DNA from: Polytrichum commune
Lineage: Eukaryota; Streptophyta; Polytrichopsida; Polytrichales; Polytrichaceae
Reading direction: 5' to 3'
Length of the DNA: 64,000 bases
Assembly: GCA_950295325.1 (NCBI GenBank)
Contig: OX485805.1
Location: 33,035,501-33,099,500, forward strand
Shown here: positions 509-62,300 of the stretch, in pieces
Layout of the letters: each line of letters opens with the position of its first letter
Numbering within the stretch: the first letter of the stretch is position 1
Translations under genes and position numbers: made by a program
The notes under the pieces: generated by a model
What the model was told of the DNA's origin: nothing
What the model saw: only the letters and a program-made list of their open reading frames with translations
The model's database searches: none

Positions 509-1642
509 TGCTGGTAACCAAATTTCTTATTCACGGTCTTACTCAGTCAGTTCGCCATGTGCAGTCCACACATCAATGCGTCAACCACACAGAATTCTAC
601 AAATGGTGAAGCCTAGAAAATGTCCGCTTGCATTCCCACATCAATAAGACATTTTTTTCCTCCGCAGTCCCAAAGCCCATCCCCAGTCTGTTTGATTCCT
701 TCTCGCGCCCCAATCAAATTACCCCGTCAAGTACCAGCAAAGAACTCAATCGCTCAAAACATGAACGATAATCCCGATTTCCTTGTCAAAGCTCGAAGAA
801 ATAACCCAAAACCTAGAACCCAACCTCTGGCCACCAATTACATGTTCAAATTACACCTGTGCCTTTCCATGATGTCGTCTGTCTCTTTCCCACCTCTCCA
901 ATCACCCCTCAAGATACCGTTTCTCATGTATGCAGACACTCATTTAAATTCCTTCGTGCAGATAGAGAGAAGGTTTCGGGTATCCCTTTTGATACTATAA
1001 TCCACGTGATCAACACCTCTCTATCTCTAGATTTTGAAATAGTAGGCCGCATCTTTCCTCTCATCATGGCCTCGTTTCTGTTCTTTTGTCACTTCAGACG
1101 AATGCATCTTCAGCGTGTTTCTGCGCGACACTCACCCAATAAACCAAGTGAGGTCGTTGGAGTCAATACACTATACAAATTACGACAATCACTCGCAACA
1201 CGCGACTCGAAACAATAGCAGACTCTGTTCGGAGTTCCTGCTAAACCCTAAACCCTGCGCGACGAATGAACTCTTGGAGGAGCCCTTTGGATACGAACAC
1301 CTAACTTACGATGACAACTCAACTCCTAATAGTAATTAATTCGCATATTACATAAAAGTCCATCTTTAAAGGCAAGTAGCCCTGGTAATACCCTGTCTGA
1401 GACTAGATACACGGGTCCTCTTGAGATACCCGGCCAAGTGAATCTCCCTTGCTGGGCACATCTTCACCATCCATCCAGTTGTGCGAAGGCCAAAACCCTT
1501 TGTGGAGGAAAGCCAGAGGAGAACTAAACCAAGCATTCAAAGAATTTGAAGGCGAGAGACGGAGAGTGCGAGGGAGGTTTGGATGGTGAGATGGCCGTGG
1601 AGCCAAGGTAGTGAAGGACATGGAAAAGAGGTCGTAGTAGGC
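509..1642. promoter_or_regulatory. divergent intergenic/promoter region
   Basis: This lies between the divergently oriented 1-508 gene and the COA6-like gene. No coding signal was recognised on either strand. A telobox-like AAACCCTAAACCC occurs at about 1243-1255, roughly 390 bases before the COA6-like start codon. Teloboxes are common in promoters of plant housekeeping and ribosomal or mitochondrial genes. Both 5' untranslated regions should fall here. Confidence 0.4.
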
Positions 1643-39575: not shown

Positions 39576-42317
39576 ATGGTTCGACTGTCACGTTCGGAGG
39601 GAGGGAGCGAAAGGTTTGTTCAGTGGAAGGAAGCAGTGCCAGAACAAAGAGACACCGCAAATGTTGTTGGACCGGACTCAGCCAACAATGTGAGAAAAAA
39701 GAAGCCTCGACAATCTCATAAACCTATTATCGCATCACTTCAAGCATCAATTGACGTAGGTGAGGTTCAAGAAATCGGCCATCGTCCAAATGCTACTGTG
39801 CGAGTCCGCGACACAGGGGTTGCTACGTCGTCACATGCTCATGTAGTACCACCGCATACCTCACCTCCACCACCTCAGTTTAAACCGCCTCGACAGATCC
39901 ACAACACGCGAGGAAGATCTAAAAAACCAAAATCAGTTCCACACGATGGGGCAGTGGGACCAACCGATTTAGAAAATCAACACAACGATTCTGAAGAACA
40001 CGAGGACGAAGATACATCAACACCGCCTCAAACTGGAGAAAACCAAGGTTAGACGACATATTACTATAGTAATTGATGTGAATTATGGTGAAGAATTATA
40101 TCCCTAAGAATTAAATAATCATGCACAATAAAATGTGAAATACCAAATCTGTGGTTGCAAATCTAAGCATCATAACATAACCGTGATTGACATACCTTAA
40201 AGTGTATTGTATGCAATTAATTTTTACTAGTAAAGAGAAATATGATTTGATTTTGCTTTCAGGGAATGTTGAGCTCCTTGCATTGAATGTGAATCGGTGG
40301 ATGTGACTCTTGTTGTCTGTGCGTTTCTTCGAAGCCACAGGTGCACGGGTCAAAGAAGTGCGCTCAACTAAAACACCATCTGCGCCGCCTCCACCAAACA
40401 ATGTGGAGAGTAACGCAAGCACAGTACGGGCAAATCATCATGCTACCAACCTTTGGTTGTCCACAACCTCTGAATCACTAGGTCATCGGAGGCCACGAAG
40501 TCCCAAGACTACAAAACAACGCGACCAAGTTCTACCCTGAACCCTTCTACTTACTTGATCACTATATTCGTTAATCACTATATTCACTATAAGAAATACT
40601 GTCCCATGTGTTTGATCATTTCAGTACACTATAAGTTGGTTTTTTAAATTCAGTTATGACGCTATGTAAAGGAACGCTAGGATGAAATACAGAAGGCGTT
40701 ATTGAGGGCTCAATCATTATGTTCCTCTGATTTGCTACAGGTACGTGGAAAATCTCGCGAAGAGTATATAGATAATACCGGGCGCAGGTCACCATCTGGA
40801 GAACACCAGCGACAGATGTATTCATTCTACAATTCAGATCATGAGGCCGATAGTAGTGATGACAGTTCACAAAACTACGAAGAAGAGCTCGAAGACGTAG
40901 AAGAGCAAGGCTATGCAGATGCAAACGAGTCGGTCCCAGGATATCTATATGGTGAAACAGAAGCTGAGAAACGGAAAGAGAGGAGGCACGCAAAGAAGGC
41001 AAGAGAGAGAGAAGGGGATAGGCGTCGTCGAGAAGGTAAACCCAGAAACTATCTGCTCGTGGATGAGTACACTAAGAAACCTTACGGGGCAGGTGTAAAT
41101 GATTGGCGCAAGGAGGTGATGTTACTATCAAGGAAACTAGATCCAGCAATAGGACAGATCAATAGACAACCCGGGGACGATGTGAAGGAAATTGGTGAGT
41201 GGATTCAACAGACTTGGGAGTACAGTACGCCTATTAAATTTGAGGTAGTGAAGGAAGTTATAGCCCGGGGAGTGTCCTTGAGACGTTCAGAGTTATGGAA
41301 AAAGATTCGCAACAAGGAACCAAAACCTCCAGATGTGACAGATCGGGCGTGGAGGTCGCTGAAAAGGGAGTTGGAGAATCCAGCAACAATCAGGAAGTCC
41401 ATAAGCTGCAGCAAGGCAAATGCGAGCAGAGTCAACTTCGGTTGCACTGGGCCCTCTGGGGAGGTGGGCGTACGAGAGAAACTCCGAAAGATGCTGAGAA
41501 GATCTCCTGATCCAGAGGAGATACAGTTTGAAATGGCGCGGGACAAGGGATATGGCGGACGATCCAAACGCAAGCAAATCCATGATATGACTGAGGAGCA
41601 AATTGCCTCTAACCCATTCGTTTTGAAACTAATGGAACGTTTAGCTGCTTTAGAGGACTCTCTAAAAACTAAATCAGTTGAAGTTGCAGCCGTTAGCACG
41701 GAGAAGTTTTCTGAAAGAGTAGTTGAACCTGATAACGAGTCTATGGCAAGTGAAGCACATATCGTTACGCTAAAGGTATGATAAGTTTCTTAAACCATAT
41801 GCTATGTAGTCATCAAGTAATTGACTTCAATTCTGGTTCTATGTATTCCGTTTTTAAAATTCATGGTTGGTAGCTAAAAACACAAAATAATCCTTGGAAT
41901 TAAGATACCAGCATTGGTTGTGATTGTCAGAGTCACAGAGCTGAAGCAACAGAGGCCGTAGAACTCGCAGAAGGGGCACGGCAGGTAGTTTGTATTCAGG
42001 TACGTGTTAAAATTTGTCAATCTAGCATTGTAATTAAAAGCTTTGCTTAGTTTTCCTTTGCTTTAGTTTGAGTATTTGCTTACATGAAATGCCGAGGTCT
42101 TTGAAAAATGGCGGAAATGTGATTTCTTACTTAAGGTAGTGTAGCAGATTCAATATAGTATATATTGGCTGGATTTGTGCGGGCATTTCAAAGAGCTGCA
42201 ATGGTGATTCAATGCTTAAGTTTAGTAAATATAAATTAGGAGTTAAAAAAACACGATCCATGTACGATGTGAAAGCATGCTATGGTTTTGCAGGGCGAGG
42301 ACGTTGCTACAGGATAG
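39576..42317 (+). CDS. CACTA-associated second protein (Transposase_24/TNPA-like), multi-exon
   Basis: The start is ATG 39576. Exon 39576-40047 (Pro-rich, with PPHTSPPPPQFKPP) is followed by one or more uncertain exons at 40263-40540. The main exon 40741-41775 (345 codons) and exons 41931-41999 and 42294-42317 join in frame at GT-AG sites and end at TAG. The main exon has an acidic stretch, a basic helix (RRHAKKAREREGDRRRREG), then a segment with WRKEVMLLSRKLD, EIGEWIQQTWEY, and a SKANASRVNFGCTGPSGE block followed by LRKMLRRSPDPEEI. That arrangement resembles the plant Ptta/En/Spm Transposase_24 family, likely a DNA-binding partner of TNP2. No stop interrupts the exons I could join, so this gene may be intact even though TNP2 is not. 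Confidence 0.6.
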
Positions 42318-43294: not shown

Positions 43295-44559
43295 ATACAA
43301 GAAATCCAAAGCCAAATCCAAACACTAGTAAATCAATACTCAAGATACCAAATTATCCTTGCAAGGAACTTTAACCGGGACATACTACTCAAAGGTAGGT
43401 CATCCAATGGGTTGACATCCCCCCCCCCACACCAAACCAAAACAACTATGAATGGACTCACTTCATGCAAACGACATGACTTAAAGCAATCAACAACCAA
43501 GAAGATTTTACGAGACAAAGAGGCCACAACTACACCTCAACCAACCTCATAGATGGCTTCTACACTAACCTCCCCAACAATCTCCAATGTCACACAATCA
43601 CTAACCTCTACCAAAACACTAACCACTACCCGGTCCAACTACAACTAGCCCCTAACAACATAATCAACAAGGGAGTAACCCCCCCCCCCCGCAAACAACC
43701 CTTGGATCACATACCCCATACCTCCTTCCAACCTACAAAAACTACAAACAACATTCTTGGAGGAACAAAGTCTATCCATAGCCAACCTCACACATACACT
43801 ACAACACAAACAACTCTCCCACACACAATGCCAGGAAGCATAAAATAAATTCCAATAAATCATAAAACTCCCTTAGCCGATGCATTGAACAAACCTACAT
43901 GACACAACCCATGCCCCCATTCCCCCACAAAGCAAAATCTCAAGGTGGATTCCTTCCAAGAAAACAACAATAGTTATAGAAATAACAACTACCAATCCAC
44001 CACAACATTCGTAAAGCAATACGAGCTACGTCTCAATACTCTTACATACACATTCAAAGCAACCAAGATAATAGAGCCATACTACTGCTCATAAACATCA
44101 ATATCCCACCTCTCTCCACAAACCTTGTAGAGCAAAAACAATGGATAGAAGACCTAGCCAACATTGGCAAAAATGCTAAGGGTGGAGCACATAAAATTAC
44201 CTCCAAAGAGACCGCAATCAACTACAGAACCGCTATCACAAAATACATGACCCTACTGAACATAAAACCAAAGACTATTCACAAACGGATATTCCATCCA
44301 ACAAACGACAAGTCCCTTGATTGTATACAAAACTCACAAGGCAATATTCTAACCGAACCCACAAACATAGCCACAAAAATATACCATACTCAACAAACAT
44401 CATTCTAAAGGCAATCACCATGTGTGAAGATACCATAGACCACCTAAACAAATGCATGTGCACAATACGTAAATATCATTGGCACACCCAAAACGGTATC
44501 ATACTTCACAAAAGTGGCCATCCAAACATACAAATAAGCACCCAATTTACCCAGGAAGT

Positions 44560-45420
44560 TTATGACAAATGTCTTAGATGACTAACCCGAATAAAAGTTG
44601 CCGGACCAGACAACATTCCCAATGACATTATCAAAAACCTACACAATGCCATGACCTAATATTCCCTATCTTCCAATAATGCTACAAACATAGAGAAATC
44701 CCAACATACTGGAAACACAGTAGAACCATCATCTTACACAAAAAAGATGACCCTATATTCCTCACCAACTATATGATGATTGCATAGGCTAATACCATAT
44801 ACAAGTTATACACAAGCACCATGACGGCTTTGCTCACAAGCTACAAAGAACAACACATAATACTACACTTTAGTCGAGAAGAATTTCGGCCACAAAAAAA
44901 TACCTCCACACAAATACAAATGATCATAGCAACAGTTGAAGACACACGACTCACCAACAAAGACATTTACCTCACATACATCGACTGCTACAACGCCTTC
45001 AGCTTCATCAATCATGTAAGACTACTCGCCATTATGGAACATTTAGGATTCCCCTTAGATGTAGTCGACACATAAAGAAAGATATACACACACTCCACCA
45101 TAGTCTTTACATGAAATGACTTTGGAACAACACCCCCAGTAGAAACCATCCGCAAAACCATATATGGAGACACCCTTAGCTCGTACCTCTTTATCATATT
45201 CCTTGAACCCTTCCTGAGGTGGTTGGAAAAAGACAATCTAGGATACTACTTCAACACATCCCCATCCGCTTGCACCACCACCGCATATACATATGATCTA
45301 GCAATAATTACCGACAACATACACCACATTCAACCACAAATACTCAAAGTATAAAAATTTGCAGAATGGTCATATATGGATTTTAACCTTGCAAAATGTG
45401 CCATCACATGATGTCCTAAC
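44560..45420 (+). pseudogene. LINE reverse transcriptase, broken
   Basis: Recognisable RT blocks are VAGPDNIPNDIIKNL (44600), EEFRPQKNTSTQIQM (44880), IYLTYIDCYNAF (44970, finger/palm A with the Asp kept), GTTPPVETIRKTIYGDTLS (about 45126-45180) and a motif C that reads YTYDL at 45286-45300 where YADDL is normal. One of the two catalytic Asp residues is therefore lost. Stops follow FPLDVVDT and precede NDFGTT, and there are several frame changes. The domain cannot be active. Confidence 0.85.
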
Positions 45421-47404
45421 AAATCCAAACTTAAACCAAACACCTTCAAAACATATATACAATCGTAAAACATCACCTACAAATCCAAAAACTTCTCCAC
45501 CCTTATACAAAATGAATCATATACAAACCTAGGTATCCAACTAATGCCATCACTTAAATGAAACCTACAAAAAAAAGGCACGATCCAAAAGGCCAAACAA
45601 CAAAGTAAACCATTTACCATCTCCCTAGCTAGCCTCAAACAAAAAAATCAAAATACTAAACATAGTCATTAAACCTTGCATAGCATATACCTACTACGCA
45701 ATCTCATTCTCCAAACCTGACATCAAAAAACTAGATAGAATGCTTAGCAAACTAACCAAAGAAACATGTAACATACCCAAAAACACTGTAAGCATCCTCA
45801 CACACCTCCCCCACAAGAATTTTGGCATAAGCATAACATGACTCCCGTATTACATACATTGCATAGGGCAACAACTAATACAAGCCTTCAATGACCCTGA
45901 ACAACTAGGTACCATTTATCAAGGACTAGCCAAATACATGTATGTCAACCATGGGGGTTCACTACACCTTTCAAAACTTAAACAACAAGCATGCACAGGG
46001 TCACCCATAGCCAGAACACTCCTACTAGAAAGATAATACGAAATACACGCCACCGTCACCAACCGTGCATTCCCCATCAAACACACCTCACTAGAACAAG
46101 CATGGCGTACCAACCCAACATACACCAATCTTACGGACAATACAAAGGCAAAATCTCAAAAATACATGGACAAATTATACACGTACGGCATAACAACACT
46201 ACAACAAATCCAAAACAAGGAAACTAGTGCCATACTAACACCAAATGAATTTCAGAACATATACACATACGCACCTAAACTCATCAAAGATGCAGTACAA
46301 CAAACCAATACATTATTCCCCTCACCCCCACCCTCGCCACCCACGAGGACCCAACTACAAACCTCACCACAACCACACACAACCACCTCATCTAACTCAA
46401 ACACCTCCCCACAAATCCCCCTAGGACAAATAATCTAAGCAATAACTAAGGAAAGAACCACCACTAGAAAAGACAAATGGGGAGCACAAACCATCAAAAA
46501 TACGGGCCAATGGCAAACCACACAGGAAAACACACAACAATGGAGAACAAAAGAAGACCTCCTACACCCAGATAACATCTTACTTGACCATAATCTCCTC
46601 CTCATAATCCAATATCATAAAAAGGTCCTAGAACAAACGACCACCCAAATGTACGCTAATTATCTCAACTACACCCAAACAAAGGACAACAAATTTATAC
46701 ACCCCCCCCCCCCCCTTCAAGAATCACCAACCTCAAACCATCCGCTCAAGAGTGTAACCCGGATAAAGACATTTTCACAAATAATCCAACCATACAAATA
46801 CACGGCTTAGAGACCACCATACATGACCAAAACGGAAACTATATAACCACTATCACTACCGAAAGAGTACAACGGCTATGGAACCGCTACACTCACAACA
46901 ACCTCCCACAACTCATTAACTTCCTACAACCCCCGCCACAAGACTTCAAAACAAAAAAGATGTGGCTCATACATGGATATATAACCATACTCCCAAAGAA
47001 AAAACCTAAAAATATACAACCTAACAATAAACACCATACACTACACCCTAAAATCATGAAACTACTAAATAAACTTCTTTAACATTACACACTCATACTA
47101 CTCATCCCCACTCACCTGAATGGCCAAAATATAATCAACAAGTAGAACCACTCCTAACAACAATACTATGCATACATAACCAAACACCCCCCCCCCTGGT
47201 CAACTTTCAAACTCCACACAAACTACAAAGCGTCCTACAAAAAACAATTAACACCCATATAGACACATACCCCATCAAATCTACCACTCCACAATGCAAT
47301 GTCAAATTCTCTCATACATCAAAAAACACCCCCAAATAAAAAATCCCATCCCTACTAACACCCCCATAACCCCGCTACCACAACCACATCCACCCTCTTA
47401 AATT

Positions 47405-47830
47405 CCACCCAAAACAATGCATATGCACGGATGGATCATTCATCCCACCCACCAAAAACTCATAAAGCCAAATAGTGGGCAATACCGTTGGATCATTAAT
47501 ATTTAGCCCCAACCGTAACACTAAAATATCATAAAGACTCCTAGGATACCAAAATGTCGTACGCGCTCAACTCAACGCAATACTCATTGCCATCAAAACC
47601 ACACAAATAACCCAACTAGACACGTACATGTTTACAAATAGCCTCGACAACATATCTTTATTCAATAACCACATCATCACCCAACATCACAACACCGCCA
47701 CCCAGACAATTTACTAATAGAAAATTTGTAAACAAATATATTGGACACACATCCATAAAGCTAGAGCACATTCGGGCATTACTAAAAATGAAATTGCTGA
47801 TACATTCTCCAATGAAGGAGAAACCAACCA
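47405..47830 (+). pseudogene. LINE RNase H domain, broken
   Basis: The frame around 47405 reads CTDGSFIPPTKN (first catalytic Asp kept). Later blocks read AQLNAILIAIKTTQ, where AELNAI is usual, so the catalytic Glu has become Gln, and MFTNSLDN, where FTDS is usual, so the Asp has become Asn. A HxARAHSGI block follows near 47755-47790. Stops are scattered through the domain. It lies downstream of RT, as in RNase-H-bearing plant LINEs. Confidence 0.8.
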
Positions 47831-48968
47831 CAACACCCCGTATACACACAACCCACTCCACCCCCTATTGGCTAGCAAGTTGCCCAATGGCCACACACGA
47901 CGGAGCCATCTGTAACCTCCACACATTCATAACAAAAGAACATAAAAACCGAGAATCTGCAGCATCAAAACATAAATTTCCTTACATGGACAAAAGGGTA
48001 TCCAATACTCACATAAATCATAAACTATGAAACCACTCTTGGAGAGATGAATGCGTAACATACGCCCAAATCACTCAAACCCTAAAATTTAGATACGCCC
48101 AATACATGGGTAACCATAGGAAGAATATTTTTTGGCCCCTCCCGCATCAAAACCCCAATTGCACATTGTGCCATAATAATGACCGAGACACATGGCCACA
48201 CCTATTATCAACATGTGAATGCCCATACTTAAAAAGCCTAAGATTGCACAACACAACAAAGTAGTTCACCTCATCACACAAACGCTACAAGCCAATAAAA
48301 ACACAAGGTTCCTCACATTGATCAATGTCGACACTCTCAACAACAAACCACCATAACATACAATCCCAAATTGGCTCCTCAAGTGTACATGCCCACGATC
48401 AACTTGCCAATACCAAGCCAAACTAAGGCCATACATACTTTGCATACTAGGAGCCCCAAACCAAACACAAACACCAATCACATCCTCCCCTGCACTCACA
48501 ATCCAACTTATTGAATTCACATACTGCCATGACAGATTCCCCGACCAAGCCCTCCCACATAAACATACCAAATATGACCCACTACTTCACAACCTATAAA
48601 ACCATGCTTGGAATACCAACCCCCTCATTACTATCATAGCCGGAGTAAGAGGGGCTATACACGAACACTCGATCAAGAAACTCGCCAACCTTAAAATCCC
48701 AAAAACTAATATTAAAGCTCTCATGAAAAATATACACCAAAATGCTATCAAATACCCCACATACCTTATCCTAAACAAAAGAAAACTTGATAATAACTAA
48801 AACCCACCACCACATTGAACTTGGAAACTACTAACACACCACCAGAGCCCACCTCTTCAAAGAGGTAAAATTAAGTTGCATCGTGGACAACTGTGATCAA
48901 CATTAGGTTAACGGGCTCTTATTCACGCCAGTACTCAGATACGGGTGTTATTTTTTCTTTTCTTTTTT

Positions 48969-48982: not shown

Positions 48983-50393
48983 CATCAATCCCACTTCGTT
49001 GTCACAAACACAAAATGAGGTTTTTATGGTTTCCCACAAAAAAACCCGCAACAATTTTACGATGCAAAGAAATTCAAGTACAACTAGCCTCCAAATCCGG
49101 CTGGGAATCACAAAAAAATGACAACGGACCACAAACCACAACACACTTGAATTTTCAAAATTCTTCAATCTTCAAATCTTCACGCCAAATTGATCGATCC
49201 AAATCTTTACAAAAAAAATCTATCGATAAGTGCTACTCCCTCAAAGGATTGTTGCCAACAAAAGACTTGGCCGTCTTTTTGTGGTCGGTCGAAGTCTCAA
49301 CCCTTCTATGCAAGAGCTAACAAACTTCCCTCCACTCAAACTAGCACAACTTTTGTTTTTGCTAACTCTCATTCAAGCAAATGATCACTCAAGAGAAAAC
49401 AATCCCATGAAACGCAACTCTTCCATATTTTATTTTCCGATTCTCATCAAATCCACACCAAACACAACAATGAGTTTTCCACAACAACAAAAAAAACTCT
49501 TGTCTCCCCAACCTCTCTTCTCTTCAATCACACATGTGAGATAAGGCCAAAAATCCTCCTCTTATCCTCATCACATGGCTTCTAATTATCCATTGGTCTA
49601 AAAATAAACTAAGGATAAAACTAGAAGTAAGGCTAAAAGGGTAATAAGAGTAACTAAGAGTAAAAAAAAAGATAAGATTAAAAATGGTAAACTAAAAGTC
49701 ACTAAGAATAAACAAAAAGGTAATCTATTTCTACTCCCTTTTACTTTCCTCCAAATCAAAGAATCGTAATGCAACACAAAATAAGTTCACATGTAAATAG
49801 TGTACGCATTTACACTACGACACCATTAGTTTGGAGATTGCATCTTCTACTATTTTGGACTCGGGACTATTATTTACCCTTGTATGATTTTTTACAACAC
49901 AAAAGTACCACATCTTCCATGTTTATGGGTTTGAAACTATGTTTATTTAATGCATTTCTCATGTCGTGTAAACTAAGATCGTTAAACACAACAGATCGAG
50001 TGTCGTCGTCAACATCAATTAGCAAAATAAAATAGCAAACTAAAATGCTAAACAACCACCTCTTCAAGTGCCCCTACTAGCAGATAAGGAGCCCCTCCAA
50101 TCGGCTAGGAACACACACACTCATCGGTAGAGTTGTTGAACATGATGAAGTTGTTGCTACATCTATACATATTCAATTGGGTAGTGGTAATCTAAGGAAT
50201 TAAACTCATGATTGAGAAAGTAATCCAAGAACTATAGGCTGGGTGCAATTTGAGCCCCATCCTTAATCGCCTTCAACCATTTAATGTTGAATTCTTGGAT
50301 AACTCTTTCAATGTGGTCTTAATTCCATAAAATTTCCAACCAACTAAATAACAACTTCACCACTAAAACATGAGGTAAACATCCACAAAATTC
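48983..50393. other. 3' flank of the Ty3 element; possible LTR, no match proven
   Basis: This lies downstream of the minus-strand Ty3 polyprotein and should hold the polypurine tract and 3' LTR if they survive. A purine-rich stretch on the minus strand (GGAGGAAAGTAAAAGGGAG, plus-strand 49733-49752) is a candidate polypurine tract. By eye I found no segment matching the 57603-59330 region, so an LTR pair is not demonstrated. The A-rich tract at 49600-49720 is otherwise featureless. Confidence 0.35.
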
Positions 50394-51781
50394 TCAATCA
50401 TGACCATTAACGGCCACGGAATGAGAGGCTTTCCGACAACGAGGACAAACCCAATTGCCAGAAGGAAGAGTAAAAATGGGAGGTGTCAAACATGCCATGT
50501 GCCATCCACATTGACATTGATCGCACAATAACATTGTTGCAGCTCCTTTCTTCTCTCCACAAACATAACAAGGCAGACCCTGTGGTACAACCGCCAACTC
50601 GGGATGCACAGAGCCGTCGATGGGAAGGTGACATGGAGCACAATTCTTTGAATGCTCACGACATTCCCGTCCATCCTTGCCTTCAAGCAATAATATACCA
50701 CTTGGCAAGACATCTTTTACCCGCAAAATCGTGCGCCCAGCCTTGACATCCAATGTCGTAGGCGCCTCCCGTTGCAAATAAACATAATCCCCCTTGGAAA
50801 ATCTACGAACCTGAGGTCGATAAGCTCCACTGCGGATCCGGGCATACCGTAATGTATCACGATGTTGAGCAATATTTAAGTTCTCCATAGCCATAGGCAT
50901 GGCCTTTTGGAAGAACGCTGCTCGGTCATGAAGACATTGAGTCCAAACATCTGGATCATTCAAGTTTACCACGGGAGCCAATTTCTCTCGCACCGAGCTA
51001 GGTAAAATTGGTCCCCGTCCATACAAGATGCCAAAGATGCTTGCCTGCTGAAACGATAACCCATTGCTATCCATGGTAACATCAAGTCCCAATCGCGATG
51101 GTTGCCATGAAGCAGTCCATACTTCCGCAAACCGCGCTTAACTGTCTGAACAACTCGTTCAGCTAAGCCATCTGCCTCAAGGTGATCTCTGGAAGTTGTC
51201 CGATGATCAATCAAAGCCTTGGTACACAATGCCTCGAAAGATCCAAGGAATTCTCTCCCTTGATCCGTCAACACCTCTGCAGGTGCTCCAAACCGTGCCA
51301 AAACTCGATCAAGAAATGCCATAGCCGCCAATTCTGAGGAATTTTTGGGAAGAGCCACGAGTTCAATCCACTTACTAAAATGCTCCACCATTACAAGCAC
51401 ATATTTGGAACCACGTGGAGTGATAGTAAGCGGTCCAGCAAAATCCAAAGACCAACGATATCCCAAGCCCATAATAGGCAAAGGCTGAAGTTGAGGTGAC
51501 AAAGTATTAAAACTTGACATGACCCGGTCACATACTTCACACCGAGAAACATAAGTGGCAACCTGTTGATACATACCAGTCCACCAATATTGGTTGCGCA
51601 ACATAGAGTGCGTCCTTCGCACTCCAAAATGTCCAAGCTCCTCGTGCACTTGCCGCACCAAAGAAGCTCTTTGATCTGGCCTTGGAACGATGCGCCTCGT
51701 TCCGTTCGGCCACACACGAAATAACAAGCTATTTGCCCAACGAAACCTTGTTATCCGGTGACTAACTCTATCTCGCTCCAT
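50394..51781 (-). pseudogene. integrase with C-terminal PHD finger, frameshifted
   Basis: Zinc-binding HHCC N-terminus: HEELGHFGVRRTH...CEVCDR (51540-51690). Catalytic core D,D,E: DFAGPLTITPRGSKYVLVMV (first Asp ~51445), VLTDQGREFLGSF (second Asp ~51275) and ADGLAERVVQTVKRGLRK (Glu ~51155), so the triad is complete. A frameshift at ~51060-51090 moves the rest into another frame (to 50394): PSSVREKLAPVV, an SH3-like YRPQVRRFSKGDYVYLQRE block and GRTILRVKDVLPSG. The end is a C4HC3 PHD finger at 50430-50580 (CYVCGEK, LLCDQCQCGWHMAC, WVCPRC). Many Ty3 integrases end in a chromodomain. Here a PHD finger sits in that place and may read histone tails to steer integration. Confidence 0.9.
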
Positions 51782-51790
51782 AGAAGATAG

Positions 51791-53893
51791 TCAAAGAGGA
51801 AATATCCCTTGTTGAAGTTTGTGCAAGACCGCCTCGTCTTCCCACACATCACTAACAACGAGAGATTTATCAATCTCCTCATCTTGCTCTTCCACAAGGA
51901 TTTTAGCAGCCAATCCCGACATCATTGTGAGATACGTGGTAGCATGCCAACCCGACATTGCCTCACGATCACAATCTCCATGCCACCTGGCTCCAGTTAA
52001 ATCCTCATCTGAAGGACTTGGATTGCGAGACAATCCGTCTGCATCCAAGTTGGCAATTCCTGCTCGGTGAACAACTTCAAAATCATATTCTTGAAGTAAC
52101 AATGCCCACCTAGCAAGTTTTCCAGTGAGCTTATCTTATTCCATAAGCCATTTTAAAGGCTGATGATCAGTCACCAAAGTAAACTTCTGCCCATACAAAT
52201 AAGATCGAAAATGTGCAATGGCCCAAACGGCCGCCAAGGCCTCGCCTTCATAAGAAGAATAATTAGATTCAGCACTATTATTACTTCTAGATGCATAAGC
52301 CACCACATATTCCTTTCCCTCTTCATCTTTCTGTGTCAATACCGCTCCCAATCCCACTGCACTCCAATCCGTGTGCAATTGAAAAGCTCTAGACACATCT
52401 GGGCGTCGAAGCCCTGGCGCTGAACCGAGCCTCTGCTTCAATGTATCAAATGCCTGTTGTTGTTCCCGACTCCAAATCCATGGTTGGTCTTTCCCCGTGA
52501 GAATGGTAAGAGGTTTGGCAATCAAACTAAAGTTTTTGACAAACTTCCTATAATAATTTGCCAATCCTAGAAATGCACGAAGCCGTTGTACATCACTAGG
52601 TGCGGGAATTTTGTGCAAAGCATCCACCTTCGCCTGTTGCACACCAAGACCGCCAGGAACAATCATGTGGCCTAAATAGGGCAATTGATCATGGAAAAAC
52701 TTACATTTCCCATAATGTAAACGGAGTCCCCACCGTTGAAGTCGTTCAAATACCGCTTGCAAATGTCTCACATGATCCTGTGGACTGTTACTAAAGATGA
52801 TAACATCATCAATGTAACATCTAGCAAACGGCAAACCAGCCAATAATTGGTCCATCACCCGCTGAAATTCAGCTGGTGCATTCTTGAGACCAAATGGCAG
52901 AAATTTCCAATGATAAAGTTGATCCTTGCTATCTTTATCAATTCCCCAAAATGCGGTCTTCACCCGATCACCCAACAACAAAGGTAATTGGTGATAACCA
53001 GACCTCAAATCCAAACTGCTGAAGATTCTAGAAAATCCTAGTGCATCAAACAACTCCTCCGGCATCGGCATTGGATATTGATCCGACTTGGTCTTGCGGT
53101 TGACTGGACGATAATCACCACACATCCGGTTTTCCGTCCAGTTGCCAAAGATATCCTTATTTGACGGCATAACCGTGGCACAAGCATACTCTCCATTGGA
53201 GAGTTCAATCAATTCCGCTGCCAATAACTCTTGACATCGAGTTTGAACACCCAACCTTTCAGAGGTACTAAGTCTGTACGGCCGTCTGAAAATAGGGTGG
53301 TCGTCCTCGAGTTGAATACGAACAGGTTTACCTTTATATCCTTCAAGATCATGAAGACTAAAGGCAAAACAATTACGGTAAGAGCGAATAAATGCCCGTA
53401 CCTTTCGTGCTTCGGCACTTGTAAGCTTTGGCCCCACTTCAATTGGCCAATTGTCAAACTCCGTGGTTTTCTTCTTCATAGAAGGATTGCCACTTGGTGC
53501 CAGCACAGCCTGTGATTGCTAGTCCGTGGAGAGGGCAACACCTTTGCCCCCATCATCTGCACTTGAATCCAAATGCGTATTCTCTCCACTACAATCAGTT
53601 TGTGTAGCTAAATAGCTACCCACATATGAAGTATCACCAAGAAATAGAAATGGAAACATTTTATGGGCCTCCAACTTTCCAAACTCTTGGGCCAAAGCCG
53701 AAAAAATACGTTGGGCTCGAAGCTCTTCCGCACCATAAAGTTTCAAAGGAAATAATCCCTCGGTGTCATTGACCTCAATATGATCCTTGGATTGCGGCTC
53801 CATTGCCCCCTGACCATTGTTCTCTGCCCTCAGAATACGCAATTGGTCATCCATACGTTGTTGAGCAGCAAGACAAATTCCAATTATCCACAC
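51791..53893 (-). pseudogene. linker, reverse transcriptase and RNase H of the Ty3 element, broken
   Basis: 53519-53893 is a linker without a known domain (LRILRAENNGQG, FPFLFLGDTSYVG), closed by a TAG. From 53506 the Ty3 Pol core follows: IQLEDDHPIFRRPYRLS, MCGDYRPVNRKT, LDLRSGYHQLPL, FLPFGLKNAPAEFQRVMD, and the active site YIDDVIIFS at ~52800-52820 with both Asp present. RNase H has LHTDWSAVGLGAVL, YSSYEGEALAAVW and VTDHQPLKWLM. A TAA at 52136-52138 falls directly after KWLME. RNase H then resumes ([26 protein letters not shown]) to a TGA at 51791. The catalytic residues are intact, so only the stops disable it. Confidence 0.92.
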
Positions 53894-54823
53894 AATGCTT
53901 CTTAAGATCCATAGCTTGCTCCAATAGGAAACGTCTCTGACCTTCCTGAACCCCGTGAGCAGCCGTGGTACCTATAAGAAAACCCATGGCGCGTTCCCGC
54001 TCATCTGCCGTAGGCTCCTCATAAGTTTGGGTTTTTGAATCCCAAACCATGCCAGGTCCACGAGATCGAAATGCAAAAGACTGTGGATATGTCACAAAAG
54101 TAGGTAGTGCACCTCTTGGAATGCCCACCTTATTAATTAATGCAAATGACAAGGTGTCATCCTTGGTAACTGCCAAGGAAACACGATGATCATCTAAAAT
54201 GTCATCCACTTTGCGATCCATAAGGCGGGGAATGCGGGCAATCGCCGCTGAAAGCACCCGAGGTGATACCAAGTTGGTCCAAAATCAACGAGGCCGATGA
54301 GCAAAGGATCCCAAAGATGCAGCATCCAGAAATGTTGGAGTACCCAGAATTTGGTTAATGTACTCAGCATCCTTCACAATTTTGTGCCGGGTATCACCCA
54401 ATAATGGTACATTTTCGAAAATGTACCCTGGCGGAGTTGATTGGTGGGTAAACCACCATTGCGTCAATCGCGTCAAATCCGCAAACAAACTAGACCTAGG
54501 ATCATCCAATCCCTGGCTAGTTCCTGCCCGCGAATGGCCTTGACAAGGCCATCCTGCAAGAATCAAATTCACGTGGCCCAACCTTCTCAAATCCTCATCA
54601 CTAATCATAGTGACATCTTGAGGAAGTTGACCACAACATCCATGAATGGCAGAGGCTGACAATTATGCAGGGTATCTCAACAACAATTGTTGGATGTGGT
54701 GTCGGACGGCTCTGTTGGGTGCATACCCATTGTCCACATGAATATATCGCCAAACTGTAATTCCAGCTTCCAACACTGCCGCCAAACCTGTGCCAATGCC
54801 TCCAAAGATCTCCACAAGGACAA
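53885..54823 (-). pseudogene. C5 cytosine-DNA methyltransferase domain, retrotransposon-encoded, broken
   Basis: Motif I (EIFGGIGTGLAAVLEAG, SAM binding) at ~54770-54823. Motif IV, AGWPCQGHSRAG, has the catalytic Cys at ~54550. Motif VI FENVP is near 54420. Motif VIII is split as HRPR, then a TGA stop (54285-54287), then FWTNL. A target-recognition-like segment follows, then the C-terminal motifs IX/X (PTADERERAMGF, RRFLLEQAMDL) ending near 53890. Overall order and spacing fit DNMT3/DRM-like or bacterial-type C5 enzymes. Predicted reaction: transfer of methyl from SAM to C5 of cytosine in DNA. All catalytic motifs remain, but a TAA after motif I (54663), the TGA in motif VIII and a terminal frameshift prevent translation of a full domain. 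Confidence 0.9.
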
Positions 54824-57602
54824 TACCTTCAGATGATGGTTGCCAACGAATGGGTTGAGCAAAAGAAAATGAGGATAAAGTTGGAGGTGCCTCTCCAAGC
54901 TCCAAATCCGCTATAATGTGTCGACAATGGTCGGATAACTCCTTAGGAGTTCGCCATGGTGGAGGTGGATCCTTGAAATGTCGAGCATGAATTTGAAAAG
55001 ATGGTAAAAATTGTTGTTCTGCCGCATTACAAGTGTAGTCCATTGTTTCCTCCAATAAAACTGGAGCACAAGGCAAATCTGCAACTGAACCGCTGCAACC
55101 AAACATTGCCTCCGCAACCATAGTCATAGCAGTGGCTGCAAATGTGACGGGAATAAATACCTTCCTGCCATCTCCAGTGGACCATCCCGGTCTAATCCAT
55201 GCCTCTTCCGTCCAATTATCCAAACCAAAGCCAAGTGGGTAAAGAGCTTGCTGACCAACAAGTATATCATAGTTGGTAGCATTAGTAACAACACACTTCA
55301 TTGACAAATGAGTGTAAGTAGGCCCTGCCCCCACATGAAAAATCAAACGTAGAGGTGCCTTGGTGTAACTTGTTGCACGTTCAGTGCCCCTTACTGAAGT
55401 CACAATAGTGAATGGACAAGGATCCAAGCTTGCTGGCGTCAATCCAAGACTGTCAGCAAGTCCTTTGCCAATCATAACCGGTTGAGCACCGGAATCCATC
55501 ATAACTCTCAGTGGTATAGCACGGATAGTGGGCATATCCGTGCGTGAAACGACAAACAAAGATTTGTCGTTCATCAGCCGTACAACTCCAGGTTGCAAAT
55601 TATGCCGTTCGCGAGCAGGCCTTGCAGAAATGTCTGCAAGATATGCCGTTCCCGACGCATAATTCGAAAATGACGTATCCACTGCTGAAATTGATGCTGG
55701 AGGAATATCAGTTTGCTTACCAAAAGCAATGATCGCCGCATCCGCAAGACTTGCTCGCAAATTGGCTAAGTCCTCCACCTCGTCAACCACAGCTTGGGAT
55801 ACTTGAAGGGATGGCAAAGCCGCCTTACCTTCTAACATTCTCCCAGCTAAATGAAAAACTGCAGCAGGCTTGAAATCCGAAGCCATAAATTCCGAACCCG
55901 AGAAAATTGGCATATGGAAAATTTTGTATGCCAATGCCTGCGTAACATCCTTCCAGATGGAATCCCCATCTCTAAAAGGTACAGGGTTTTTAGCCCCAAC
56001 AACAGTGGTGTCTACCAATCCAAATGACAAAGGTAAACGTGCTTGACCAATTTGATCAGCTGGTCCGGCATGGCGAGGATGTAGCACCTCGTTGCTACCA
56101 CCACTCGTGGAAGCCACCGCATCTGCTAATGTTTGTGAGCGAGTAGAAGCCGCCGCCACCACCTCTCCAGCTGCTCCAAACATATACATGTCCAAACCCG
56201 AGGTGCCACCACTCACATGCGGCTCAGAAATTTGAGCAAAAGATGCAGAAGATTTAAGCTTTTGCTCAAGCTCTACCACCTTAGCCTCAAGACTCTGCTC
56301 CCTTGGAGACTTTCCAGTGACATAACTGGCAGGCCGCATCTCAGGATGTAGTTGGAAACAATGATCCACATCGTGATTAGTGCCACCACAATGGTTACAT
56401 TTCAATTGTCTCTTCTTAGAATTGTCCCCTGCCTTTACTGGTTCCATCTTTTGTTTTAATTTTCCCAAAGGCTGAGTTGTCTTCTTCTTAGGACAATTGG
56501 GATCATTCTTCGAATGACCAGCTTCTCCACAACCCCAACAATGCAAAATCTTTTGCTCCTTGACGGGTTGAGTCTCAGCTAAACTACTAGTAGCTGTGAC
56601 AATTCTTCTTGGTTTCGGACTCTCTGTCATCCAAGATACCATATCCGTGGCATCATGTTGGCAAAGAACCCGATCACATCTCTCAACCACGGCAAACGCT
56701 TGTGCAAGCGTAGCTCGGCCCTCGTAATCGAGGATAATCCGAGGTGATGCCAACTCAAGTAGCCGCTTGTCAATCTTAGACAAAAAGATTTTAACAAGCT
56801 GACTCTCAGCAAAAACACATCCCGACTCCACAGCAAATCGCGCGAGTCGCGTATACATGGTCCGTGGAGTATCATCCTTCTCTCGGCGGAAATCCTGGAT
56901 GCGCTGCATCTGGTCTCGCCGAAACCCACCATACTCCACTTCCAAATGTGCGACAAATTCAGTAAGGGGATTAAACGGAGGTGGTGGACCAACAGCCGTC
57001 AATGCTGCCTGTGTAGCACGTGCCACCCGTGAAAGGGTTGCCGTGCTACTGCTAGCCACCATTGGCCCAAGTGCCAGTTCCGTGTCCTTAGACTCCGCCG
57101 GCGATTCCTCCTCCTTTAAGGTGGGTGGAGCTAATGTAGCAATCGCCCCATCTTTAAGGGCTGAAATAAGCTCAACCCGGGCCTCCCAATACTGCTCCAC
57201 CTCCCGAAGTTGTCGCTGATGACCCTCTGTCCAGCGTTCGTAAGTTTGGAGTGCCTCATACTCCAAATGTTGAGGCAGAAGTTCAAAGGCATACCAATCA
57301 TTGAAATTGGAAGACCTTTGGCGTTTCTCCTTAATCCAGGTACGAAACCGGAGTTTCCAATCGGGCAAGGAAATGCCCCCAGCTCGACCTGAGAACCGAT
57401 CACGCACTGAATTGTGGCGATCATCCTCCATTTCGTCGAACGTGCCGACACTCCAAATCCGAAGCCTACTAGTAGTGTCCAACGCCGAAATAGGCTCAAA
57501 AGCCTCGTTGGTATCTACCTCTGGCTCAAAATTTGTGGTATGCACGTCCTCCAAGTAATTTGGTGATGGCGATCGATAATATCGGCTCCTAGTTTGCACC
57601 AT
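54663..57602 (-). pseudogene. Gag-protease polyprotein running into methyltransferase motif I
   Basis: 979 codons from ATG 57602 to TAA 54663. Gag (residues ~70-330) contains the retrotransposon-gag-like stretch LPDWKLRFRTWIKE and FVAHLEVEYGGFRRDQMQRIQDFRREK-type helices. Zinc knuckles are at residues ~351-367 (CWGCGEAGH...C, with an enlarged last spacing) and ~401-414 (CNHCGGTNHDVDHC, canonical CX2CX4HX4C). A retropepsin-like domain follows, with the catalytic triplet in MMDSGAQPV near residue 702 and IGKGLADSLGL after it. The last ~60 residues already belong to the methyltransferase (VLVEIFGGIGTGLAAVLEAG). The frame has no internal stop and is the best-kept part of the element. Confidence 0.9.
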
Positions 57603-57756
57603 AAAATAATCACTTGAGAACCTGCAACTATCTACAAGGTAATGGCAACCTGCACCTGTTGCGGGCTATCTAAATGGCAATCCCTTGCCAAATGCCAAGT
57701 GTTTATGCCCCCAGAATTCCAAAATTGTGCAAAGGTTTGAGATTGGTAATTAAAAT

Positions 57757-58045
57757 GAAAAATCAGCGTTGAAAAGGCTCATTTCCAAGGTGATTATGAA
57801 CTCCAATCAACAAACTAAGTGCACCAATGGACTCCTAGGAAGATTTCACACAAATTAGGCTCAAATTTCACTCCAATCGGAGTTAATTTGCTCCCAAAAA
57901 CAAAAATCAGCGTTGAAATTAGCAATTTCAGCAATGATTTTGACTTCCAATCAAAAATCCAATTACACCATTGGATTCCTTGGCAAATTTCACACAAAAT
58001 AGGCTCAAATTTCACTTCAATCGGAGCTAGTATGCCCCCAAATTT
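57757..58045. repeat. tandem duplication, ~144-bp period, 2 copies
   Basis: AAAAATCAGCGTTGAAA begins each copy (57758 and 57902). Shared later blocks are CACCAATGGA/CACCATTGGA, TTTCACACAAA.TAGGCTC, AAATTTCACT.CAATCGGAG and GC.CCCAAA. The copies differ at many positions, so it is an older duplication. Confidence 0.85.
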
Positions 58046-58387
58046 GAGCCTCAAAGTTTGTGACAATGAAATGCCAAATTTGAAAGTGAAAGTAAAAAAA
58101 TAAAAATAAAATAAAATCCGGTTTATTTAAAATTTTAAATAAAAATTAAAAATAAAAATAATAAAAAGAACTTAATGAACTTAATCTAAGTAACTTAATT
58201 AGCCTAAATGAATTAACTTAATTAAATTAAACTAATGAACCTAATTAATTAAGTTAATCTAAGTTAATGAACTAACCTAATTAACTAAGTGAATTAACTA
58301 ACCTAATTAACGAATTAAGCTAACTAACTTAATTAATCAACTTCATCAAGCTTAGTCAACTTAATCAACAGTCAAACTTACCTTGAA

Positions 58388-58560
58388 AAAGGGGGGGGGG
58401 GCAGGCTGGCGCCGCCCGCCACCTCGGCTAGGCTGTCGCCCGCCCGCCCCCGGCCCCGGCCCGCTGCCACCTCGCCGCGGGGCCCGGCTAGCGCCGCCCG
58501 CCGTGGGGCCCGCCCGCCCCCGGATGCAGAATTGGAGCTCCAGGAGCTCCAAGAGGGTCC
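58388..58560. other. isolated GC-rich island with a G-run
   Basis: A run of about eleven G is followed by about 140 bases of nearly pure GC (repeated CCGCCCGCC, GGCCCGG), set in DNA that is otherwise strongly AT-rich. Short open frames in both directions are compositional and not evidence of a gene. Confidence 0.8.
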
Positions 58561-59330
58561 GGTGAGCTCCGGATCCGTCCGGAGCTCAACCAAAATTAAA
58601 ACTAAATCGGATTTTAATTGTGGTTTATGTTTGTATTTAAATTAAACTTTGCTTCACAATTTGCAAGCAAGAAAATGTGACTTGAGAATCTTGAAACTAA
58701 ATGGAATCTCAAGATTCAAACATCAATAATTGAAGAAAATACAAGAGACAACCAAAGAAAAATGGGAAGATTTCTCTCAAAATCTTCTTGAGGATTGCAA
58801 GAAATGACGAACTAAGCTTTCAAACACTTGTATCACTCATTTGCTCTCATTACTGGGCCATTCTAGCTCAGAAATACAACCAAAAATTAAAATTTTGAAT
58901 AAATTGTTGTCAAGTATGAGGTTTTCTCTCTCCAAGCTTAAGAAACTAAAATGTCTCCTTACAAAGCTTAAGAAACTCTAAAATTCACACACAAGAGTCA
59001 AGCTATCTCTCACTCCACGAAGGGAGAATCCAAGAGTGCAAGTGGTGGAGAAAGAATGCAAAGGCTTTACTCATAATCTACTACACCATAGCCATGAGAA
59101 AGCAACAACAAGCTCTCTCTCTCTCTCAAAACACACTCACAAGACTTGACTTGACAACAATGGCAAGTCAAGAGGCCTTCCTCTCCATACAACCCCAATC
59201 CTATGTGGAGTTCATCCATGGAGTGGATGAACAACTAACTAGGACTCCCAATGGAGTCCGTTACTCATCCCAACACACATGGACTCCTAGTGGAGTCCAT
59301 TTACTCCTAAATTGACGTGACTTAGCCCCC

Positions 59331-62300
59331 GATGTCACCTCACGTGACACTCATGTTAAGGAGAAATCAAAAACTCACTCATATATGGCATTGTCAAAAT
59401 ACTAAGTATGTATTTGCATCCAAGGACACCCATGCTATGTGCTTGAACTTGATTTTCAATAATATTAAGCTATTCAAGTGATTAAAAACACACGCTTGAA
59501 GCATTGATTAAACAAAACATATCATGGTTATCCACTCTCATCTCCAGATGTAGCGAAGAAAGAGAATGTTCCAAAGGCAACAATAGCACATAAAAATAAT
59601 AACAGTTTCCAATAACATCGTAGTTCTTTTGATGTAATAATAATTGCATTATCTTGAATTTTCTTGTGATATATGCCATATACAACAAAGCAAATTATTT
59701 ATTTAAGAACAAGTGCAAGCATAATAAATTGGACAACTCTTCATCCTTGCACATGTTTGAGTGAAAGTGATTCAAAACTATATACTTACTTTTAATTTTG
59801 TGAAAACAAGATCATAAACATTTAAAAAACATATTGATGTACAGAATCCAACAATTTATGTTGATAAAACAATCTAAAAAAAATTATATGTATTTTAGAA
59901 GCAAGTGCGAGTGATGTGCAAGTGGTGATTGAACAAATAATCAACAATTTTTGTTTAAAATACCATAGAAATACGTTGAATTGATGATTTTCTACAAAAC
60001 ATTTGATGATGACCTCAAGTGTATAGTGAATTCAAAGAATATGAAAAAATAAATAAAGTTCAAAATAGTCAAGGTCATGAATTTCAAGTCCAGAACTAGA
60101 TCTAGCCATTGCTTTTGAGCATTATATTTTAATGAATAGTTTTGAAGATCACATCTTCATATTCTATGTTTGAGTACTTAATGTTACAATAAAGGTCACC
60201 ATGAAAAATATGCAATTTAAAGAACGTTTTACTATTGCTTTTAGGCGTTTGACCAATAAACTACGGTTTTAGGATACCATAGAACTTTTTTGGTCCACTT
60301 TACGGTACAATATATTATTATACAAACTACACTATACACCACTCTTTGGAAGTTTGAACATCGTGTCCAATTGAGGGCATGATGTTCATGAATCATGCTC
60401 TCAATTGTATCAATTTATCAATCAACAAATACATTATTTGGGTTTTTATATAGAGCATAAGAAATAATGAATTACTGAAATTGTCCATCCGTATGAGAGG
60501 CTCTTCTCATTGATACAAAACAAGTCGGAACATGATGTGAAAGAACTTCATATTATTTTAATAAGTTGGGTACCGTACCTACGTTGGTAGTGTGGAGGGG
60601 TGGATGTAACATCCCTAGACAAGCATGTGGGTGATTACGGGAGTATTGATCAAGATTGACAATGTATGTGAATAATAGCCCCTTTTGATTGGTGGAAGCG
60701 ATGCATAGGACTTCATCGTACCGAGTTGCTTCGTTTTAAGACACAAAGTGGATGATATTGGTTAGTGTTTCAAGGTGACATGAAGTGCAATGCCACCACC
60801 ATTCTATAACATAATACTTTATCAAAGATGAGACCAAAACATGATATATTTTCATATGACTCACTAAGTTGTGGCCACACATGGTTTAGAGCGTAGACTT
60901 GAAGTGAGGGCGCCATGAAACATATGGCCATGGTGCAACTTGAACCTCGAATCCAAGGCAAAAGTGGGCCAAAAGCAAGCAAAAGGGTGGGAGTGTGAGG
61001 GCATGGGTTGGGAATGTGGAGGCCCCCATCTTGGCATGTGCCCGAGTGCGCATGCCACATGCATGGCTTGTAATTAGTAACTTAAAGTACTCAAATGTCC
61101 ACACCAACCACACCTTGTTTCTTACCCATGTTTCAATCATAACTTAACCCTTAAACCCTTTCTCAACCCGCTTCGGGTCTCTCACTACGGATGGTAGTTT
61201 TGAAACCCTACAATGTGAATCGGTATACATTGTTATGTGACTTTATGGTAGATAATGATAGCTCGTTGTCTTGCAAGGTTGTTTTTCTTGATACATGGAC
61301 ACAAAGTAGTAGGTTGGGAACAATTTGACATGGAGTTCATATCATCCAATAGAGTTGATTGTAAAGTATAATATGAACAAGGGGTTTTTTCTTCTTAATG
61401 TAACAAATAAGTTTTGGAGGGCTTCTTTGAGTTTTAGACGCCAACATATTTCATCTCTTTCTAGCTAAGGATCTTCTTAATTTCTTTACCACTTATGTGA
61501 TCATGCATTTCTTTGCTTCTCTTACCACTTGAAAAATCCCCAATTAAAATCAACCATAAGAAAATAATCCAATATGTTCTCAAAGTTTTGTTACCCCATA
61601 AGAGAGCAAAATGATTTCCCTCTCTAGTTTTTTTAAGGTCATTAATACAAGTGTTGGAAGTGGTAAGTACGAGAGATTCCTTCAAACACCTAAGTTGGTC
61701 TCCATTTGTGGGAACTTTAGGATCAACTCATCTATTTAAACACACACACACACACAAGATTTATATGAACAAGCTAAAAAGCATTTTAGGGTTTAACCTT
61801 TAATAAAATCATAGAAACATTATTATACATTTTTGTTATAGTGTGCACCAGTCCTATGTAGTGACTCTTCTTATTTAAACACATGTATTGGATTGATATA
61901 TGACAAGTTTATAATTAAGAAGGGACATCAAAGTGACACTTGTCACAGTGAAATCGGACTATTTGCTCAAATATAGACACCACGAAATGTACCACATTTA
62001 ATAGAACTAGAAAACCACTTTGACGAAAACATGATTTTCACTTTGACATGTAGATTTGGCATAGCAATCCAACGGTTAAAATAGTATGTGCAGTTGGAAA
62101 GGTCAAGCATAACAAGGCCACAAGCTTTGGACACATTTCTTGACCTCTTCACCCAGTCACAATATCAATGTATCAAGAAACAATTGCTTTGCTTATTTTC
62201 AGCCGGTGATAGTCACTTTTAACAAGAAATAACTTCGTTCATTTAAACCAAGTAGGGATCCAAAATAGGGGCCGGGAATTATTCGTCACATCATTTGTTT

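Follow-up and report, generated by a model that had tools for sequence, protein, structure and literature searches.

A Polytrichum commune retroelement family with a Ty3/gypsy-type Pol, a putative DNMT3-like methyltransferase ahead of a conserved UAG codon and a PHD finger at the integrase end

Background

Can a retroelement carry both a DNA methyltransferase and a PHD finger as regular parts of its own, and what would it use them for? The question is raised by a stretch of 64,000 nucleotides of the Polytrichum commune genome (positions 33035501-33099500 of contig OX485805.1, contig C3 in our numbering), hereafter called the window. At 50394..57602 of the window an initial annotation had described a Ty3/gypsy retrotransposon whose single polyprotein joins Gag, protease, a cytosine-5 (C5) methyltransferase, reverse transcriptase (RT), RNase H, integrase and a C4HC3 PHD finger, and had suggested that the pairing of the two unusual domains serves self-silencing or the taming of the host. 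The genome comprises 408 Mb in 64 contigs, and seven chromosome-sized contigs, each of 42-78 Mb, were seen. We found that the element in the window is a broken member of a family of retroelements whose Pol is of the Ty3/gypsy type and that the methyltransferase and the PHD finger are regular parts of the element and no one-off. Judged by its sequences, the family is large, present in high copy number and recently active.

The main text of PMC5890265 reports retroelement DNA methyltransferases from dinoflagellates and one charophyte. The text of a 2025 paper, citing the 2018 work, mentions, for streptophytes and dinoflagellates, 'LTR Copia and DIRS' elements with DNMT3 (PMC12344493), and the text of a 2019 opinion describes transposon-encoded methylases as absent from land plants such as tracheophytes (PMC6338049). 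Among the open-licence papers listed, figures and supplements excluded, on PHD fingers in long terminal repeat (LTR) elements, Gypsy elements with split repeats, methyltransferase-bearing retroelements of mosses or bryophytes and readthrough retroelements, we did not find the combination described here.

Results

The window copy

On the minus strand of 50394-57602, six-frame reading, Pfam searches and motifs bore out the domain set and order first proposed: Gag with a CCHC knuckle, protease (DSGA), C5-methyltransferase, RT, RNase H, integrase (H2C2 and rve) and the C4HC3 PHD finger. The Pfam E-values were 4.6e-12 for DNA_methylase (PF00145), 2e-30 for RVT_1, 2.7e-18 for H2C2, 1.9e-14 for rve and 2.5e-9 for PHD (PF00628), and the protease match, at 0.0014, lies under the curated cut-off of its family. 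The methyltransferase is located between protease and RT as annotated, with motifs I, IV, VI, VIII and X found in it, and the PHD finger does stand in place of the integrase chromodomain, for which the window pieces gave no Pfam match at E up to 0.1. The best solved relative of the window's RT is the Ty3 RT, at 1.1e-69; the entry 7q5b is named Ty3-G and the entry 4ol8 we take to be Ty3.

Two parts of the initial description had to be revised. The element is larger than annotated, spanning 49962-59349 between TGAG target-site duplications (TSDs), and it is not one polyprotein: the window copy is broken by in-frame stops in the methyltransferase (two), at the end of RNase H and in the interval between RNase H and integrase, as well as by two frame breaks, and intact copies have two open reading frames (ORFs) split by a UAG. 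The window copy is 96.2% identical to a young copy, locus L024, over 9055 aligned positions. The features of the window copy are collected in Table 1. In the leader, between A1 and Gag, the segment 58170-58600 is very G+C-rich and lies beside AATT-rich tandem repeats.

Table 1. Features of the retroelement copy in the window (A and B, split repeats; loci elsewhere in the genome are labelled L)
Feature	Position	Strand	Basis or remark
A1, left terminal split repeat, starts TGTCACG	58910..59349	-	98.6% identity to A2 of L024; TSD TGAG 59350-59353
Leader with two tandem 144-bp units	57752..58039	-	common to L022 and L024
ORF1 first piece: Gag, CCHC knuckle 56358-56399, DSGA 55485-55496, methyltransferase motif I 54792-54806	54666..57602	-	
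C5-methyltransferase domain, broken	53886..54860	-	motifs IV 54540-54554, VI 54405-54416, VIII 54288-54299, X near 53904-53915; intact in relatives
ORF1/ORF2 stop, TAG then CAATCA (UAG-CAR-YYA)	53519..53521	-	conserved in family
ORF2 start: RT and most of RNase H	52139..53518	-	Pfam
Integrase H2C2 and rve core	50969..51790	-	Pfam
Integrase C-terminal region	50571..51056	-	alignment with L024, L030 and L032
C4HC3 PHD finger, final domain of ORF2	50436..50570	-	Pfam, motif
B, right terminal repeat, ends CACGACA; extra A2-B2 absent	49962..50068	-	98% identity to B of L024; TSD TGAG 49958-49961

Regular occurrence of both domains in the family

A profile search of the genome with PF00145 returned 353 candidates, 123 of which were scored, all 123 above the cut-off. 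The window's methyltransferase piece returned 436 candidates (150 scored) and a piece covering the integrase C-terminal region and the PHD finger (INT-C/PHD) returned 830 (150 scored); of these last 150 matches, which were ranked by score so that full-length matches are favoured, 147 run to the end of the PHD, while three break off inside it, at residues 222-223. The family falls into two subfamilies, A being window-like and B diverged, with identities of subfamily B to the window of 62-67% in the middle methyltransferase piece, 80-86% in RT (73% in one piece) and 66-78% in the PHD.

Pairing was counted without the subfamily-B rows (24 in the INT-C/PHD list, 16 in the methyltransferase list). 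On the same strand, a methyltransferase match lies 2.5-6 kb upstream of 107 of the 126 subfamily-A INT-C/PHD matches and at 6-45 kb for another seven, which leaves 12 without one, and for the 134 subfamily-A methyltransferase matches the same three classes of downstream INT-C/PHD hold 107, 7 and 20. Two of the 12 unpaired INT-C/PHD matches were read, and both contain a frame-broken enzyme. We also drew 20 loci of 10 kb each from the PF00145 list, a non-random sample biased to long open frames. The methyltransferase is present in 20/20 by construction, since the loci were chosen by their methyltransferase match; Gag, protease, RT and integrase matches are likewise present in 20/20 and the PHD in 18/20. 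The remaining two (L015 and L017) have neither PHD nor B repeats and look 3'-truncated. The initial annotation had named intact relatives without the methyltransferase or the PHD, or a separate insertion of either segment, as what would speak against it; nothing of the kind was seen in the loci read, a set that holds two of the 12 unpaired matches and copies from within the scored 150, or in the third lineage described below, which carries both segments.

Two ORFs separated by a conserved UAG

The search for further copies that the initial annotation had suggested thus returned the same domain order, with both domains regular in the family, and with it a Gag-side ORF, a leaky-type stop and split repeats that the first reading had missed. 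In the intact layout, ORF1 encodes Gag-protease-methyltransferase and ORF2 encodes RT-RNase H-integrase-PHD, in the same reading frame with one UAG between them. Both ORFs are open, in one frame with a single stop between, in seven of the 20 loci; counted from stop to stop, ORF1 has 1386 amino acids (aa) in six subfamily-A copies or 1372 aa in L030 (subfamily B), and ORF2 has 1047 or 1045 aa. In L032 both ORFs are open but lie in different frames. The junction was mapped in 19 of 21 sequences (the 20 loci and the window; L021 and L033 are unmapped) and reads TAG in 19/19, followed by CAATCA in 11 (subfamily A), CAATTA in seven and CAGTTA in one. With the junction of the third lineage (L051), TAGCAATCA, added, 20/20 mapped copies, which represent three diverged lineages, follow the pattern UAG-CAR-YYA, even though the individual letters at CAR and YYA are not the same in every lineage. 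Because the TAG is conserved at the mapped junctions, the one in the window is the family's own signal and not damage.

By its sequence the junction is a leaky stop of the tobacco mosaic virus (TMV) type, and according to the text of PMC2194720 UAG-CAR-YYA is by itself a sufficient context to direct readthrough in plant viruses, TMV among them. We infer that ORF2 is made by readthrough of this UAG; lying on the Gag side of the stop, the methyltransferase would therefore probably be produced at a Gag-like dose. A readthrough-stimulating hairpin downstream of the UAG was considered and is not claimed, the z values in three copies being -1.3, -0.7 and -3.4.

Split repeats, ends and age

No ordinary LTR pair was found in the window, because the repeats are split and A2-B2 is missing there. 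Comparison of copies gave the layout A1-ORF1-ORF2-B1-GC-A2-B2. The A repeat is ~437 bp long in subfamily-A copies and 334 bp long in those of subfamily B; the B repeat has 106 bp. Split repeats, A1...B1-GC-A2-B2, thus occupy the place of identical LTRs at both ends, and because the repeats are split we did not file the element as an ordinary LTR element. The order B1-A2-B2 was read in 12 of the 20 loci, five of which also gave A1; a single B without A2 is present in L014, L022, L023, L029, L033 and the window, and in L019 the repeats are rearranged. Copies with a single B would be the expected outcome of recombination between B1 and B2, or may alternatively represent a second integration product.

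The element termini are TGTCACG...CACGACA, and a perfect 4-bp TSD was present in 6/6 copies read at both ends: TGAG (window), CCAC (L016), GAAG (L024), CATC (L028), TGTC (L030) and GGTT (L032). These are duplications such as a DDE integrase leaves, despite the split repeats. Genome-wide, the B-GC-A junction CACGACAGCTGTCACG (CACGACA-GC-TGTCACG) was counted 138 times, against 0 for its reversed control. Within a copy, A1 and A2 differ by 0-2 substitutions and 0-3 gaps (5/5 copies), and because they are nearly identical the insertions are recent.

The methyltransferase and its relatives

The motif order I, IV, VI, VIII, X is unrearranged in the window and in its relatives, where the DRM-type order, with VI-X before I-V, was not found, and an alignment of seven stop-free methyltransferases shows no variation in the catalytic motifs PCQ, ENV, HRPR and QAMDL. 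The best solved relatives of the intact subfamily-B enzyme of L030 are DNMT3A (1e-11) and DNMT3B, followed by 4onj (1.3e-6), which we take to be the tobacco DRM, the bacterial enzymes 3g7u (3e-5) and HaeIII (2e-4), and DRM2 (0.0018). These matches identify the element enzyme, at the level of sequence, as a DNMT3-like cytosine-5 methyltransferase. Capture from a host DNMT3 is likely, and some observations count against a simple origin of this kind: at 33-41% identity, two phage enzymes carrying a YWTN motif lie as close to the element enzyme as DNMT3A does (35-36%), and the window's middle methyltransferase piece matches HaeIII first in the PDB. Phage enzymes match the window's methyltransferase piece to 1e-10. 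Phages (448 records) and plasmids (121) gave many partial matches to the middle piece, and the last piece gave no phage match. In IMG/VR no relative was found with the window's methyltransferase and RT pieces or with the INT-PHD alignment, and the methyltransferase alignment gave six loci that match part of the enzyme only.

The tree of the methyltransferase proposed in the initial annotation was built with 14 rows. It places the three element lineages in one well-supported clade, whose deep position relative to DNMT3 and bacterial enzymes runs over long branches. Human DNMT3A gave 139 matches in the genome, the best of which look like element copies because of their long frames, while a few weak rows, C7:33957254 and C5:22541959 among them, leave room for a canonical host DNMT3. 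The host does have a rearranged DRM exon (L044), with motif X before motif I and 53% identity to Arabidopsis DRM2 across 117 residues, in keeping with a streptophyte host that is probably no angiosperm, such as a moss with n = 7. DRM is likewise a plant de novo C5 methyltransferase, but it is circularly permuted, unlike the element enzyme, to which it is 24-30% identical.

A third lineage

Among prokaryote genomes there were two methyltransferase matches, one of which spans the whole enzyme at 66% identity; it lies on contig CADCWO010000201.1 of the cyanobacterial metagenome-assembled genome (MAG) AVDCRST_MAG81, whose label presumably stands for arid biocrust. Very probably the contig is a eukaryotic retroelement that was binned wrongly. 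Its ORF2 is open, with 1047 aa, and includes the PHD finger (85% identity over residues 30-241); the domain order, the stop context and the same 16-base B-GC-A junction (L054) are also kept. All four loci read on this contig (L051 and L053-L055) appear as contamination of the MAG, possibly from a circular form.

The PHD finger and the end of the integrase

The C4HC3 zinc ligands are kept in nine of ten intact ORF2s, L030 having Y in place of H. The closest solved PHD fingers in the PDB include those of PHF12, CHD4, Lid/KDM5, UHRF1, PHF21A and ATXR5, which are mostly readers of unmodified H3 tails, and by analogy the element's finger may dock on H3K4me0 chromatin. Chromoviruses are Ty3/gypsy elements with a chromodomain at the integrase C-terminus; the element shares with them a chromatin-reader module in this position, but has a PHD finger and split repeats where they have a chromodomain and LTRs, and the ORF2s of L024 and L030 gave no Chromo match in Pfam. 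Nor did these two ORF2s give a Pfam match to a tyrosine recombinase at E up to 0.05. The element has split direct repeats in common with DIRS/PAT elements, but neither their recombinase nor their TSD-free insertion. What it does have is protease, RT, RNase H and integrase in Ty3/gypsy order, with an rve domain and 4-bp TSDs.

Other features of the window

At 31330-34703 on the minus strand there is a broken CACTA/En-Spm-type transposon (Transposase_21, 5e-60; DUF4218, 5e-31). At 43400-48000 on the plus strand, A and C are strongly enriched in the coding strand (GC skew down to -0.54, AT skew up to +0.39); the broken frames there look LINE-like by eye, and three pieces of the segment had no Pfam match. 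Two open frames also had no Pfam match: a 366-aa frame with charged stretches at 40681-41778 (plus strand), and one at 2-526 (minus strand) that looks by eye like the beginning of a host gene for an organelle-targeted plant protein, perhaps of mTERF type.

Discussion

Proposed life cycle

The reading that we favour, with confidence a little above even, is that a retroelement with a Ty3/gypsy-type Pol took up a DNMT3-like methyltransferase and a PHD finger and uses the enzyme on its own complementary DNA (cDNA) before integration. Ribosomes would mostly stop at the UAG and release Gag-protease-methyltransferase, while a few would read through to make the full Gag-Pol. The methyltransferase would thereby be packed in quantity into particles and would mark the double-stranded cDNA inside them. 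During reverse transcription both ends could be rebuilt with the internal B1-GC-A2 junction as template, in the way proposed for DIRS/PAT elements, and the DDE integrase would then insert the product with a 4-bp stagger, the PHD finger at its end docking the intasome on unmodified H3 tails.

The pattern of substitutions counts in favour of this reading. Using Nei-Gojobori counts on 12 copies with intact ORF1 and ten with intact ORF2, omega between subfamilies A and B was 0.04 for RT and likewise for integrase, 0.09 for the PHD and 0.11 for the methyltransferase, while the ORF1 tail reached 0.63 (0.12 for the methyltransferase and 0.63 for the tail when L032 and L033 are left out). These values are rough because synonymous divergence (dS) is saturated, at 2.6 for the methyltransferase; for Gag and protease it was not computable. 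With this reservation, methyltransferase and PHD look constrained between the subfamilies, and within subfamily B the methyltransferase omega is 0.20.

Besides the saturation, several observations weigh against the proposed cycle. Within subfamily A the methyltransferase omega is only 0.52, at a dS of 0.02, and the PHD omega exceeds 1 within subfamilies, on very few changes. Comparison of a young copy with the window copy gave C>T counts of 123 vs 87, at 3.5% of CG, 3.8% of CHG and 2.7% of CHH cytosines, and because this excess is only mild there is no strong mark of past methylation. Covariation gives the hairpin 3' of the stop no support beyond shuffles, since pairing as high as that observed arose in 175 of the 500 made. 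The first and last 127 bases of CADCWO010000201.1 are identical, so that the contig closes on itself and its outer ends and TSD are not visible; such closure would be an assembler effect of the A...B-A layout or a real circle. The main text of PMC5890265 also reports that the Gypsy DNMT3 of Klebsormidium nitens was inactive in yeast assays, a result that its authors call inconclusive.

Alternative explanations

We rank the marking of cDNA before integration above the self-silencing and host-taming roles suggested in the initial annotation. An enzyme that entered the nucleus and methylated resident copies or the host genome de novo, damping the element or shielding the host, seems unlikely to us, though it is favoured by the resemblance of the PHD finger to fingers known as H3-tail readers; that finger, however, sits on the integrase and not beside the methyltransferase, and many copies have long open frames, some of them very young, which gives no sign of restraint. 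This role also draws on the SymbioDIRS-Dnmt3 enzymes, for which the main text of PMC5890265 reports de novo CG activity in yeast and raises slowed retrotransposition as a possibility. The yeast result for the K. nitens enzyme would fit action on genomic RNA or on the tRNA primer, or a non-catalytic nucleic-acid-binding part of the particle, and the Gag-side position would suit RNA packaging; with all four catalytic motifs invariant and DNA methyltransferases as the closest solved relatives, we consider such a role improbable.

The same can be said of production of ORF2 by reinitiation or from a separate RNA in place of readthrough. Tca2, which was expected to read through, did not do so in yeast according to the text of PMC2194720, and subfamily A has an in-frame ATG 14 codons into ORF2; against this, the rows of subfamily B and of the third lineage lack an ATG at that position, and the UAG-CAR-YYA context is kept in every mapped copy. 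It is very improbable that the split repeats are decayed LTRs, the ancestral 5' LTR having lost its final 106 bp and an extra piece preceding the 3' LTR. A2-B2 jointly run TG...CA like an LTR, but the arrangement and the GC spacer are identical in subfamilies A and B, the B-GC-A junction recurs in L054, the TSDs lie outside A1 and B2, and DIRS-like repeats are described for the K. nitens relative in the main text of PMC5890265. That chance or a secondary insertion built the architecture in the window copy alone, which is indeed broken, can practically be dismissed: it is already contradicted by the methyltransferase-PHD pairing across the family (107/126 and 107/134), by the PHD in 18 of 20 loci and by the 147 of 150 scored INT-C/PHD matches that reach the PHD, a figure that score ranking favours.

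Comparison with described elements

By its description in the main text of PMC5890265 (de Mendoza et al. 2018), KnitGypsy-Dnmt3 of K. nitens comes closest among published elements: it combines a Gypsy domain set, an unrearranged Dnmt3-related enzyme and repeats equated by the authors with those of a DIRS retrotransposon, all of which are also found here, and purifying selection (Ka/Ks under 0.2) is reported for it. Its enzyme lies in the Pol polyprotein ORF, whereas ours lies at the end of the Gag-protease ORF, before the UAG-CAR-YYA. That text, figures and supplement aside, contains 0 occurrences of PHD or chromodomain and does not describe a leaky stop or Gag-side placement for KnitGypsy-Dnmt3. 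SymbioDIRS-Dnmt3 of dinoflagellates, in the same source, shares a DNMT3 within a retroelement and A-coding-B-A-B repeats, but has a tyrosine recombinase where our element has an rve integrase and 4-bp TSDs. A Gypsy-like integrase with a C-terminal PHD is known from Ginger1-9_HM, one family among the table rows seen of PMC2836005; the Ginger1 elements described there differ in being DNA transposons in which the PHD is accompanied by Ulp1, with no RT, Gag or methyltransferase.

Conclusions

More tentatively, the parts described here may add up to a self-contained epigenetic life cycle, with an enzyme made at Gag dose, a pre-methylated insertion, a PHD-guided integrase and DIRS-like end repair combined with DDE insertion. 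If this is true, such a cycle has so far been found in one streptophyte genome and one further organism. The family is young and high in copy number, it retains intact frames, and the DRM gene of its host genome is of the rearranged type. The Gag-side placement, the leaky-type stop and the PHD finger on the integrase make the purpose of the enzyme testable, by sequence data and with isolated domains, in terms of dose, packaging and the chromatin of insertion sites, and, since young intact copies share the layout, it becomes testable whether a parasite of the genome puts a mark on its own DNA ahead of insertion.

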